Origin: Pectobacterium zantedeschiae
Lineage (GTDB): Bacteria; Pseudomonadota; Gammaproteobacteria; Enterobacterales; Enterobacteriaceae
Assembly (NCBI RefSeq): GCF_004137795.1
Contig: NZ_NWTM01000001.1
Span: 310,001 to 374,000 of the forward strand
Reading direction: 5' to 3'
DNA: 64,000 nt
Part shown: positions 42,775-58,846 of the stretch, piece by piece
Layout: each line of letters opens with the position of its first letter
Numbering within the stretch: the stretch's first letter is position 1
Position numbers and translations under genes: made by a program
The notes under the pieces: generated by a model
What the model was told of the DNA's origin: nothing
What the model saw: the letters and a program-made list of their open reading frames with translations, nothing else
The model's database searches: none

Positions 42775-42834
42775 AATATATTTCAAGGCGCAGGTAGCCA
42801 ACGCATTTGCGGTTTGAAAGATGAGGGTATACAG
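42775..42834 (+). repeat. Dispersed palindromic repeat, copy 3 (short form) between nuoF and nuoG
   Basis: The segment begins AATATATTTCAAGGCGCAGG and ends GATGAGGGTATACAG. Its right half, GCCAACGCA..TTGAA..ATGA.GGTATA, lines up with the right end of copy 1 (from 17518) at most positions, and the two ends are inversely related. It is about 60 bases, so it would be an internally deleted copy lacking the CTTACTTGAGTAAG centre. Confidence 0.6.
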
Positions 42835-42887
42835 AATTTTTGATTAGCGCCTGTGGCAACACGGGCCATTATGGAAGCATGCTGACT

Positions 42888-55386: not shown

Positions 55387-56805
55387 TTATGCGGGGTCCA
55401 GCGTGCCATTGCGACTTTTGCGCTTATAGACCAGCACGGTCAGCACAATCGGAATGACGGCGGCAACCAACATCGCGAGAGCAAAGATTCCCCAAAACTG
55501 TGGTTTGATGGAGAGGATGCCCGGCAATCCGCCTACGCCGATGCCATTTGCCGTTACGCCATACAGGCCGCAAATGAGCGCCGCGGCGGCGGAGCCGAAC
55601 ATGGCGCACAGCATCGGAAAGCGGTATTTCAGATTGATACCGTACATGGCTGGCTCGGTCACGCCCAGAAAGGCGGAAATTGCTGCGGGAACAGAGATTT
55701 CTCGTTCGTTGGCTTTCCTACTGACGATAATCACTCCGACGACGGCAGCCGCTTGCGCAATATTGGACAGCGCGATGAGTGGCCAGACTGGTGTACCGCC
55801 CATACTTTGAATCATCTGCATATCAATCGCTAACGTTGTTTGGTGCACGCCCGTGATGACCAGCGGCGCATACAGAAACCCAAACAGCGCAGCGCCAACT
55901 GGTGCGAAGCTACCTGTCATGACCGCCTTAACGGCCCAGGCGACGCCATCGCCAATCATTCGACCAAACGGGCCAATCAACGTGTGTGCCAGGAAAACGG
56001 CCAGAATGAGTGATGTTACGGGGACGACCACCAAATAGAGGTAATCCGGCACGATTTTTTTCAGCCGTATTTCGATCAACGCCAGCGCCATCCCAGCTAA
56101 TACAGAAGGGATGACCTGCGCCTGATAGCCTATCTTCTCTATGGTGAACCAGCCAAAATCCCACACTTCAGGCGTTTGTTGGCCAATGAGATAGGCGTTC
56201 ATTAACTGTGGTGATACAAGCGTGATGCCCAGCACGATGCCGAGGATGGGCGTGCCGCCCATTTTGCGTACGGTTGACCAGCAGACGGCAACTGGGAGAT
56301 AGAAGAAGATGGCTTCGCCCAGTAGCCAGAGGAAATCATAGACGGTTTGCCAAATTGGGTAGATCTGTACCAGCGTTTGCCCATCGCGCATCGGGATGTC
56401 ACCGATAACGTTACGCGCCCCGAGGATCAAGCCCCCGCTGATGAGCGCGGGAAGCAGGGGAAAGAAGATCTCGGCGAAATGTGAAATGCTGCGTTCAAAC
56501 CAGCTCATGTTCTGGCGGGCGGCGACTTTGGCTTCTTCCTTATTAATCTCTCCTTTTCCCGTGGTGGCGAGCAGCGCTTTGTAATACTCATCTACGTCGG
56601 TGCCAATCACGACCTGGAATTGTCCTGCGTTCGTGAAGCAACCTTTCACCATCCGCATTTCTTCAATATTTTTGGGATGAGCCTTAGAAGCATCATGTAA
56701 GACGAAGCGAAGGCGGGTGATGCAGTGCGTGACGGCCGCGATGTTTTCACGTCCACCGACTAGTTCGATCAGACGGTCAATATCCTGTTGTTTCACTTTA
56801 CTCAT
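55387..56805 (-). CDS. treB: TreB, PTS trehalose-specific EIIBC
   Basis: A 472-residue sugar-PTS permease that imports trehalose as trehalose-6-phosphate. The EIIB domain (1-80) has the phosphorylated Cys28 in VTHCITRLRF; the EIIC domain (about 110-470) has the family block ALFGFLYAPLVITGVHQTTLAID and GVTEPAMYGINLKY. ATG 56805 is about eight bases after AAGGAC and gives the E. coli length (473). There is no treR gene beside it in this window. Confidence 0.95.
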   Translation of the reverse strand: MSKVKQQDIDRLIELVGGRENIAAVTHCITRLRFVLHDASKAHPKNIEEMRMVKGCFTNAGQFQVVIGTDVDEYYKALLATTGKGEINKEEAKVAARQNMSWFERSISHFAEIFFPLLPALISGGLILGARNVIGDIPMRDGQTLVQIYPIWQTVYDFLWLLGEAIFFYLPVAVCWSTVRKMGGTPILGIVLGITLVSPQLMNAYLIGQQTPEVWDFGWFTIEKIGYQAQVIPSVLAGMALALIEIRLKKIVPDYLYLVVVPVTSLILAVFLAHTLIGPFGRMIGDGVAWAVKAVMTGSFAPVGAALFGFLYAPLVITGVHQTTLAIDMQMIQSMGGTPVWPLIALSNIAQAAAVVGVIIVSRKANEREISVPAAISAFLGVTEPAMYGINLKYRFPMLCAMFGSAAAALICGLYGVTANGIGVGGLPGILSIKPQFWGIFALAMLVAAVIPIVLTVLVYKRKSRNGTLDPA

Positions 56806-57020
56806 AGTCATGTCCTTATATCTTTTAGCGCAGACGTCGGGGACGCGAAGTAAGTACAACTACAGAAAAGCATAGTCTGTTAATGATGTTTTTGCCGTGA
56901 GAGAAAAATGCATTGGGCTGTTTTTAAAAGAGAATGTTCAGACATGCGGCGTGCTGCACAAATCTGTGTTGTACGAGTAGACAAAAAGAAAGGAGGATGA
57001 AGGTAATAGTGGGACGAGAG

Positions 57021-57052
57021 AAAAACAAAAGCCGCCTATAGAAGGCGGCTTT
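57021..57052 (-). terminator. Rho-independent terminator of the small gene upstream of treB
   Basis: Read on the minus strand, AAAGCCGCC (57052-57044) pairs with GGCGGCTTT (57036-57028), followed by TGTTTTT. Confidence 0.88.
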
Positions 57053-57072
57053 AGAGATTGTTTATATCACAA

Positions 57073-57171
57073 TCAGAACGGGCTGATGATTGACCCAATA
57101 CGTTCACAGTAACTGACATAAACATCTCCCATTCTTTTAAAGAATTTGCTGATTTTACGAAACATAGTCAT
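57073..57171 (-). CDS. Unrecognised 32-residue basic amphipathic small protein
   Basis: A short gene on the minus strand. ATG 57171 is preceded by AGAGGAG with a seven-base spacer, and the frame reads MTMFRKISKFFKRMGDVYVS then YCERIGSIISPF, stopping at TGA 57073. The N-terminal half is strongly basic and would form an amphipathic helix, as in membrane-associated microproteins. It has its own promoter (TTGAAA, 17 bases, TACCAT), two CRP-like sites around it, and a Rho-independent terminator, so it looks like a complete transcription unit of about 195 bases. I do not recognise the family. The layout recalls E. coli AzuC/AzuCR (28 residues, CRP-repressed), but visible sequence similarity is slight. 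Alternatively it is a leader of treBC. Confidence 0.65.
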   Translation of the reverse strand: MTMFRKISKFFKRMGDVYVSYCERIGSIISPF

Positions 57172-57200
57172 TATCAGACTCCTCTAACGGGTTAATTAAG

Positions 57201-57273
57201 TGTGATGTTCATCACGTTTTTAATGGTAGCGGAGATGAAATTGGATTTCAACATTTTTGTGATGTTAATCACA
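57201..57273 (-). promoter_or_regulatory. Promoter of the small gene with two CRP-like operators
   Basis: On the minus strand -35 TTGAAA (57251-57246) and -10 TACCAT (57228-57223) are 17 bases apart, giving a start near 57216. TGTGATGTTAATCACA (57258-57273) is a perfect TGTGA-N6-TCACA site centred about 50 bases upstream of that start. TGTGATGTTCATCACG (57201-57216) lies over or just after it. The downstream site would be expected to repress. Confidence 0.65.
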
Positions 57274-57379
57274 AAAATATAACGAGTTGGCAAATTACGC
57301 TCACCGTAGAGAGAAATGAACCTGATGCGCGCCCGATAGCGCCGCGAATCAGGTGGGAGGAATGCAATACGAGGTCGTG

Positions 57380-57937
57380 TCAGGCGGAATAGTGATAAAT
57401 ATTGTGATCGAACCACTGCTCGCCAATCTGCTCTGCATCTTTCTCTGTGTGATGAAAACGGAAGCCGAGACGTTGGGCCACGGCGTTGCTACGCGTGTTG
57501 GCGGTTGACGCTTTGATGACGCAGCGCTCAACGAGGTTCGCATCGGTATAGGCCGCTATTAGCGTGCCGACCGCCTGAGAAATGATGCCTTTACCTTCAA
57601 ATGCTTCGGCGATCCAGTAGCCGATGACGCCTTCCTTATCCTGAATCGTGTTGAAGGACACGATGCCTGCCAGCGCGTCGTCCCAGCGGATGACGTATAC
57701 GGCGGCTGTTTTGGCGAAGAACGTCTTTCTGTTATCGCGAATGGTTTCACGCGTGTCATCGACGCTCTTGACGGAATCCGGCCAGGGCAATGTTCGTCGC
57801 AGGCGTGGTTTTTCCTGCTGAATCAGAGTAAAAAGCGCATCGGCGTCACTCTCTTCCTGTATTGTTAGGCACAGATGGGGCTGTTGGCGTAGCTCATACA
57901 GCTTGTCTAATAACGTATCTACAATCGGCGTTTCCAT
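57380..57937 (-). CDS. GNAT-family N-acetyltransferase (RimL-like)
   Basis: A 185-residue protein with the GNAT fold of the RimJ/RimL type: IRWDDALAGIVSF (strand 4), GVIGYWIAEAFEGKGIISQAV (acetyl-CoA loop, Q/RxxGxG/A variant) and NTRSNAVAQRLGFRFH near the end. It may acetylate a ribosomal protein, an antibiotic or another small amine; the substrate cannot be read. It is followed twelve bases upstream by the phzF-type gene on the same strand. Confidence 0.85.
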   Translation of the reverse strand: METPIVDTLLDKLYELRQQPHLCLTIQEESDADALFTLIQQEKPRLRRTLPWPDSVKSVDDTRETIRDNRKTFFAKTAAVYVIRWDDALAGIVSFNTIQDKEGVIGYWIAEAFEGKGIISQAVGTLIAAYTDANLVERCVIKASTANTRSNAVAQRLGFRFHHTEKDAEQIGEQWFDHNIYHYSA

Positions 57938-57949
57938 AAAACCCTCTCT

Positions 57950-58846
57950 TTACCCTTGCAATGTACCATCAACGATTGTGACGCTGTGCCCGCCGATCCA
58001 AGGTTCATCATTCAGGTAAGTCACAGTAATACGGCCATCGCAGTGAAGCATGGTGCCTTGTCGCACAAGATAACTGAGTGGTGCGGCGACATTATTCGTG
58101 GAATGCTGCTGACGAAGCAGTGCTGCCAGACAGGCATTGGCGCTGCCCGTAACCGGATCTTCTTTAAGATGGCCACGTTCAATATAGAACGCGCGAACTT
58201 CATAATCAGCCGGTGTCGCGTTATCGTGTGGGCCGTAGATGGCGATACCGTTGGTCTGGCTGAGGTTTTCCACTGCTGCGAGCGCCTCTGCATCCGGTAG
58301 GGTATTCAGACAGGTATCGGCACTGTCTACACGAACCACAAGCCAGCGAATACCCATGTGTACGGCGGTAGGTGGATAGCGCTTATCGATGCGGGTAGTT
58401 CCATGGTTGGTCATGCCCAGCGCTTTTTCCAGCAGCGGCATATGCTCATCGCCAAACGGAACGATGGTGGCCTGCGGGGCGTGAAAAGCGAGGCTACCAT
58501 CATTATCGATGTTGATTGGAACTAAACCAACGCCACATTGTTGTATCAACTGCCCTGGAGATTTAGGGCGCAATCCTTCTTCCAGCAGCGCATGTGCGGT
58601 GCCTAGTGTGGGGTGTCCGGCAAAGGGCATCTCCGATTCTGGCGTAAAAATACGGACATGATAATCCGCCAAGGGATCGGTAGCGGGCAGGACAAACGTG
58701 GTTTCTGACAGGTTTGTCCAACGCGCGATATCCTGCATTTGCGCATCGGTTAACCCATTCGCCTCCATAACCACGGCAAGCGGATTGCCCTTGAAAGGCT
58801 GCTGGGTGAAAACATCGACCTGTTTGAAACGACGTACTATAGGCAT
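57950..58846 (-). CDS. PhzF-family isomerase/epimerase-like protein
   Basis: A 298-residue protein of the PhzF/YddE family (diaminopimelate-epimerase fold). The start [20 protein letters not shown], the catalytic Glu in [24 protein letters not shown] and [15 protein letters not shown] are diagnostic. Housekeeping members have unknown substrates; nothing around it suggests phenazine synthesis. Probably cotranscribed with the GNAT gene. Confidence 0.9.

Follow-up and report, generated by a model that had tools for sequence, protein, structure and literature searches.

The minus strand of the window (the whole 64,000-nucleotide stretch of Pectobacterium zantedeschiae DNA analysed here) carries at 57021–57273 a short transcription unit whose 32-codon frame, as comparison among genomes indicates, is a conserved gene for a small protein of 29–32 residues. 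It is a real small-protein gene, belonging to no known family but to a known regulatory kind. The unit stands free and encodes a real peptide, as had been proposed from the letters of the window: it is conserved, it is under purifying selection, and it is found intact without treB. Probably, the product is a free-standing, CRP-repressed, sugar-induced small protein of the same kind as AzuCR and VcdRP, where transcription, repression, induction and target are steps that we infer.

Layout of the transcription unit

From 5' to 3' on the minus strand, the locus comprises:

57258..57273, minus strand: CRP-type site 1, TGTGATTAACATCACA, TGTGA-N6-TCACA, 10/10 with 0 mismatches
57246..57251, minus strand: -35 hexamer TTGAAA, from the promoter scan and its recurrence across loci
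57223..57228, minus strand: -10 hexamer TACCAT, after a 17-bp spacer; the hexamers score 9/12
57201..57216, minus strand: CRP-type site 2, CGTGATGAACATCACA, 9/10 with 1 mismatch
57179..57185, minus strand: ribosome binding site AGAGGAG, read from the sequence and seen also in other loci
57073..57171, minus strand: the 32-codon gene and its stop, MTMFRKISKFFKRMGDVYVSYCERIGSIISPF, from the open reading frame, homologue searches and codon tests
57053..57072, minus strand: 3' untranslated stretch, kept in Pectobacterium, with predicted pairing to ~57129–57114 within the frame
57028..57052, minus strand: intrinsic terminator with a 10-bp stem and a T-rich tail as far as ~57020

A promoter with CRP-type sites, a ribosome site, a frame under selection and a terminator are the marks of a CRP-controlled small-protein unit, and all of them appear to be present. 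The predicted mRNA is ~195 nt long, and the frame begins ~45 nt behind the predicted start. CRP-type site 1 is centred at about -49.5 relative to this start, and CRP-type site 2 overlaps it, with a centre at about +8.5, positions that depend on the start being predicted at 57216. From centre to centre, the two sites are 57 bp apart.

Taken one at a time, these elements occur at chance level. The promoter scan alone gave 1 hit against a shuffle mean of 2.1, the terminator scan alone gave 1 against 1.8, and CRP-type sites of at least 9/10 numbered 3 within the window against 2.09 expected. Two of those three sites are the pair at this locus, spaced 57 bp; when the 249-nt region was shuffled 20000 times with its dinucleotides preserved, no shuffle contained two CRP-type sites of at least 9/10. 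The unit is judged to be real because conservation decides where scans for single elements stay near chance: sites, hexamers, spacing, ribosome site and frame all recur at loci of other genera. The terminator recurs in most of these genera. (Two loci, L037 and L038, of Yersinia and Serratia, show no obvious terminator directly 3' of the frame.) The original prediction had described two CRP-like palindromes, a 17-bp-spaced promoter between them, a ribosome site, the 32-codon frame and a terminator, with the downstream palindrome on the expected start point, and it was accurate in each of these parts. The palindromes lie where they were placed, the promoter is present as TTGAAA-17-TACCAT and recurs as TTG-17-TA...T in all 53 loci, the remaining elements are all present, and site 2, at 57216–57201, covers the predicted start at ~57216.

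Distribution of the gene

A search for the peptide among relatives, suggested along with the prediction, found the gene in the soft-rot bacteria and in some of their relatives. With the single peptide as query it was present in 25/25 Pectobacterium genomes, one match each. The Dickeya genus carries it in 9/9 genomes, again with one match each, the genus that includes Yersinia massiliensis in 4/25, and the genus that includes Serratia sp. Ag1 in 3/7. In these last two, distant genera, the gene is dispensable, since those few genomes alone carry it. A profile search of 392 family genomes, run at E up to 10 with the 19 matches at E < 1e-6 making up the counted set, found the gene in seven genera beyond Pectobacterium. 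A DNA pattern scan yielded 20 stretches, from Pectobacterium, Samsonia, Candidatus Symbiopectobacterium, Dickeya, Edaphovirga, Serratia sp. Ag1 and Yersinia massiliensis, and genus g125 also carries the gene. When the profile search was made order-wide (394 genomes, E up to 0.02), 11 genomes matched, 3 of them Pectobacterium; outside the family there were 8 weak partial matches alone, the best at E 0.001. In E. coli, blastn of the unit gave no match at E up to 1e-5.

The peptide has no counterpart among the Pfam and NCBIfam models (E up to 10). Rfam gives nothing at gathering level at the locus, and its 17 sub-gathering matches there (E up to 10) were judged to be chance. (Elsewhere in the window, an ordinary nuoG RNA element lies at 42834–42877 on the plus strand: Rfam RF01748, 55.6 bits.) Literature searches returned no paper attributable to this unit, and a text search with the peptide sequence came back empty. 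The available main text of two papers on soft-rot bacteria (PMC4710047, PMC9239193) does not mention treB. The former, as far as its available text goes, is a P. atrosepticum study of 137 sRNAs that were called under starvation (PMC4710047). A CRP-repressed gene would be off at that time. It is possible that the unit has been detected earlier as a nameless transcript.

Selection on the peptide

Codon comparisons show strong purifying selection on the peptide. Between genera, codon changes are mostly silent: over the last 24 codons, the window and Dickeya genes differ with a pS of 0.86 and a pN of 0.07, and the two Yersinia-type loci that were compared gave 0.65 and 0.02. When equal numbers of changes were placed at random, an outcome as conservative as the real one never arose in 5000 placements for either pair; four further pairs gave 17 to 123 such outcomes out of 5000. 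(L078, which enters the codon and promoter comparisons, is the same contig as L114.) A codon-substitution test had been put forward as a check on the frame, and this excess of silent changes speaks in its favor. Among 20 distinct Pectobacterium sequences, the core has a pN of 0.006 against a pS of 0.163.

In the soft-rot genera, the core of the peptide reads FFK(R/K)(M/L)G(D/N)(V/I)YVSYCERIGS(I/V)ISPF with few exceptions, and the Yersinia, Serratia and Edaphovirga peptides retain much of C.R(I/V)G....PF. The Dickeya peptide starts three residues later and has 29 residues. An AlphaFold model from the single sequence predicts one helix, spanning residues 4–29, with a mean pLDDT of 81. The peptide had been described as basic and amphipathic. 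The second of these properties holds for the family, being conserved in the three members tested (shuffled P 0.0008–0.003), but the first does not: the net charge is +4 in the window, +1 in Dickeya and 0 in Yersinia.

Repression or activation by CRP

Comparison of the loci shows the promoter to be fixed in place between two CRP-type sites. At 53/53 loci (51 of them found by a strict motif, with L116 and L117 measured separately), TTG-17-TA...T is flanked by two CRP-type palindromes, whose centres are 57 bp apart in 49 loci, including both L116 and L117, 58 bp in 3 and 56 bp in 1. These loci represent 49 distinct genomes, as L118–L121 repeat L033, L035, L036 and L034. Site 1 scores 9 or 10 of 10 in 51/51 loci, and 10/10 in L116 and L117; site 2 scores 8 to 10 of 10 in 51 loci. 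The centre of each site lies ~14.5 bp outside the promoter, counted from the first base of the -35 or the last base of the -10.

How would CRP act at such a promoter? Its usual activating positions are -41.5 and -61.5. Repression would be the natural reading of the arrangement, because site 1, at about -49.5, stands at neither of these and site 2, lying over the predicted start, would block it. The opposite reading, that CRP activates the promoter, would account for two near-consensus sites at a fixed spacing, one of them upstream of the -35, but it is rather unlikely given these same positions. The azuCR promoter of E. coli, which is reported to be CRP-repressed, has its own site 1 at about -48.5, and vcdRP is CRP-repressed too, according to the available part of PMC8672173.

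Probable constraint on the RNA in Pectobacterium

In Pectobacterium, the RNA itself is probably constrained as well, by structure or by base-pairing. Over the 25 Pectobacterium loci, the frame has a pS of 0.178 against 0.407 and 0.404 in two upstream genes; over 20 loci, the values are 0.153 for the frame and 0.397 for treB. None of 176 overlapping 32-codon windows in the neighboring genes (0/52, 0/38 and 0/86, with median pS of 0.409, 0.385 and 0.397) is as low. The 20 nt after the stop show 1.4% pairwise difference among Pectobacterium, against 38.5% in the upstream flank, and the folding of the window RNA exceeds that of shuffled sequences, with a z-score of -3.8. Perhaps the Pectobacterium RNA is a dual-function RNA.

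This structure does not extend through the family. The helix between the 3' stretch and the frame (~57129–57114) is predicted in L001, in L020, in Samsonia L026 and in a 17-locus consensus fold; in Pectobacterium L008, one of three Pectobacterium loci that were folded singly, it is not. Eleven loci of other genera were folded, and 10 of these have different pairs between frame and 3' stretch (5–17), while L037 has none. Fold z-scores range from -3.6 to +0.8 over 15 loci, and from -3.3 to +0.8 in the other genera. In the 17-locus consensus, made from closely related loci, 0/53 pairs have two-sided compensatory changes. Between genera, the peptide is kept and the 3' stretch with its helix is not. 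RNA structure was rejected as the conserved feature of the family, the Pectobacterium helix being missing from those 11 loci and from L008. What is retained throughout the family is the peptide, and the constraint on the RNA belongs to the Pectobacterium clade.

These results also bear on the view that the unit matters chiefly as a small RNA that base-pairs, or as one of dual function, with the frame secondary. The low pS of the Pectobacterium frame, the nearly invariant 3' stretch and a fold better than that of shuffled sequences all lend it something. It is nevertheless quite improbable, with the 3' stretch and helix lost between genera that retain the peptide, z-scores as high as +0.8, none of the pairs compensatory, and pairing to treB at the level of shuffled sequences. 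An RNA as the sole product would be at odds with the pattern of silent changes.

Comparison with known systems

Several sugar-related systems offer points of comparison, all of them as described in the available part of PMC8672173. AzuCR is CRP-repressed, and AzuC binds and activates GlpD. Transcription of vcdRP in V. cholerae is repressed by CRP and responds to glucose. VcdP has citrate synthase as its binding partner, and the VcdRP RNA represses PTS mRNAs. Spot 42 is also repressed by CRP. In sgrS, a small frame lies upstream of the pairing part, and sgrST is activated by SgrR.

The E. coli AzuCR resembles the window unit in having a short amphipathic peptide, a terminator of its own and two CRP-type sites at the promoter. 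The dimensions are similar: the AzuC frame starts 42 nt behind the annotated RNA end (~45 nt behind the predicted start here), the RNA has 159 nt (~195 nt predicted here), and site 1 is at about -48.5 from the annotated azuR end (-49.5 here). On the other hand, the second azuCR site lies between the -35 and the -10, 30 bp from the first, so that there is no 57-bp bracket, and the genome neighbors of azuCR are different. By these tests the window peptide is not an AzuC (hhalign probability 4.3%, E 0.0096, 10 columns). Against NCBIfam, including the AzuC model NF033642, it gave 0 families at E up to 10; E. coli AzuC matches NF033642 at 1.3e-21 in the same library. The kinship in kind with AzuCR that the original prediction had pointed to is upheld by an AzuC-like peptide behind an identical bracket elsewhere in the genome of the window.

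VcdRP of V. cholerae, also an RNA under CRP control and linked to sugar, has a 29-residue frame and ends in a terminator of its own (PMC8672173, available part). A CRP-type site at the promoter, judged by sequence match, is a feature of the window unit as well. A difference is that V. cholerae is described with its CRP site on the upstream side of the -35 box. Identity with VcdP was not supported in an hhalign comparison with the frame of L103, which we take to be VcdP-like, in place of the V. cholerae VcdP itself (E 0.69, probability 0.1%). The VcdRP pairing seed, CCCC downstream of the frame, is absent from the transcript strand at 57072–57020. SgrS/SgrT and Spot 42 are sugar-related, as is the role proposed for the window unit; the window locus has no gathering-level Rfam match.

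Toxins and treBC

A small amphipathic helix, basic in Pectobacterium, might also suggest a type I toxin or some other membrane-active peptide under antisense control. This has very little likelihood. No second sigma-70-type site was found on either strand at 56500–58000 (a weak promoter could escape), the gene is single-copy in the 25 Pectobacterium and 9 Dickeya-type genomes, the charge falls to +1 in Dickeya and 0 in Yersinia, and tblastn of the peptide at E up to 1 found no match among 72,556 plasmid records or 50,697 phage records. For want of such plasmid or phage matches, a mobile element or toxin was rejected.

A link to treBC, the next genes on the same strand, had been part of the original prediction and is not supported. 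Of 39 loci with ~1.5 kb of flanking sequence at either end, 26 have treB downstream (Pectobacterium 20/25, Samsonia 1/1, Symbiopectobacterium 5/5); in the other 13 it was not found, although the unit is intact in all of them. The latter are 5 in Pectobacterium (L008, L009, L013, L015 and L024), 4 in Dickeya, 1 in g125 and 3 distant loci (Yersinia, Serratia and Edaphovirga). The treBC genes are a segment that comes and goes at the locus, because in Dickeya L063 the unit sits between what we take to be a PhzF-type gene and an apparent nuoN. In the window, treB starts at 56805, ~220 bases after the end of the unit's terminator. The frame has no run of any single regulatory residue, and the predicted RNA pairing with the treB start region was equaled by 75/300 shuffled RNAs. 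That the unit is a leader or attenuator of treBC is scarcely credible: treB being next on the strand here and within 1.5 kb downstream in most Pectobacterium, and a weak Rfam Phe_leader match (30.3 bits, where gathering requires 55, E 0.0044), would speak for it, but the separate terminator, the lack of a regulatory run and the 13/39 loci without treB speak against it, and the synteny together with the pairing test refutes it as a general account.

The treBC segment itself varies. A treC remnant is kept in L013 and L024, with treB missing near the unit; the Symbiopectobacterium-type loci L060, L067, L068 and L071 have a tandem pair of treB-like genes, some in pieces; and the treB alignment is gapped by ~42 residues or split in two in L003, L005, L006, L022 and L018. 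A repeat-like stretch, ATACCCTAAATAATTCGAGTTGC, occurs just before treB in L018 and L022.

The same bracket before other small-protein genes

In the genome of the window, a loose form of the bracket pattern matches three places: the unit described here, one spaced by 66 nt, and one with an identical 71-base layout. The last of these is followed by a 23-residue MKLLNKIIAMFENININFGTFNQ and then by a 28-residue MRVVRKINQILKALGKTYRGVNPHAIFR. It and the family to which its first frame leads are located as follows:

L128 1501–1850 (G000:C3:2734048 onward), outside the window: second bracketed unit, with two short frames of 23 and 28 residues
L130, L131, L133–L140, L143–L150, L152, L154, L156: 23-residue family, MKL(L/I)NKIIA.F...FGTFN, in other Enterobacteriaceae genera

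The second unit adjoins what is presumably an allantoinase-like gene. The 28-residue peptide resembles E. coli AzuC (E 7e-05, blastp of the two sequences alone) and has no match to the NCBIfam AzuC model NF033642 at E up to 1. The 23-residue family shares the identical 71-base bracket, with the frame 28–34 nt behind it, but its peptide is unrelated to that of the window, and it reaches further genera. Neither of two members tested matched Pfam or NCBIfam (E up to 1), and one member of the 23-residue unit had no blastn match in E. coli at E up to 1e-5.

The 71-base pattern, which was built after the two units of the window's genome had been viewed, was found with up to 2 mismatches 30 times, in 24/198 family genomes and 18/154 genera, many of the matches being from related genomes; the reversed pattern, as a control, gave 0 matches in the 198. 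All 27 exact matches (27/27) are followed, 25–34 nt on, by an ATG with a ribosome site that opens a frame of 16–33 residues, whereas the same test passed at 69/20000 random places in the window. Six of the 27 belong to the 32-residue family of the window and 21 to the MKLLNKIIAMF 23-residue family, to which L149/L150 (16 residues) and L152/L156 (24 residues, no FGTFN) were assigned by eye. Since the pattern was derived from units of the window's genome, the six are not independent evidence. An AzuC-like second frame is present in 11 of the 21. The three inexact matches comprise L139, a member of the 23-residue family, and L132 and L142, which belong to neither family. In L142 (G580), a 26-residue frame, MLNALKNVVVSYFISLAEVHPEVTRF, and a hairpin resembling a terminator come after a degenerate bracket, possibly a further family.

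Across 295 order genomes, a search tolerating one mismatch picked out 7, of which 4 belong to the family and 3 lie outside it. Among the latter, L158 alone has an exact bracket, which precedes a VcdP-like MVGSNASYWFAHALYTQSFQYPNPFRR; in L160 and L161, with one mismatch, the bracket precedes a longer, unrelated gene. MVGSNASYWFAHALYTQSFQYPNPFRR is akin to frames adjoining pepD in L103, L107 and L091, which have a CRP-type site ~170–220 bases upstream. From the pepD neighborhood, the size and this kinship we infer that the frames of all four loci are VcdP-like.

Does the bracket mark a class of genes? It may be that the 57-bp CRP bracket is the common mark of an overlooked set of small-protein genes induced by sugar, which includes the window family, the MKLLNKIIAMF/AzuC-like family and, in one related lineage or more, a VcdP-like family, a proposition for and against which the arguments seem evenly balanced. 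No description of a promoter device shared by unrelated peptides was found in the literature searched.

Proposed role

If the preferred reading of a CRP-repressed, sugar-induced small protein is right, the promoter would be held shut whenever sugar is scarce. CRP-cAMP would then occupy the site that abuts the -35 as well as the site at the start point, and RNA polymerase would be excluded. With glucose or another preferred sugar, cAMP would fall, and the ~195-nt mRNA would be produced and translated. Its product, a predicted amphipathic helix whose conserved tail in the soft-rot genera is CERIGSIISPF, would bind some protein of carbon or energy metabolism, whose activity it would adjust. The nature of this target is a guess, made by analogy with the known systems; the genome neighbors of the unit, which we take to be a PhzF-type gene and the end of nuo and, in Yersinia and Serratia, a sugar symporter, point to none.

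Why should a cell retain such tiny proteins for its change to a preferred sugar? AzuC and VcdP, the CRP-repressed small proteins named in the available part of PMC8672173, are single cases. The bracket is specific enough to locate such small-protein genes from DNA alone, which makes this question testable, and with it the role of the CRP sandwich as a tight off-switch. If the bracket does define a common set, then the unrelated peptides behind it would be modular regulators of metabolism, released together as cAMP falls.
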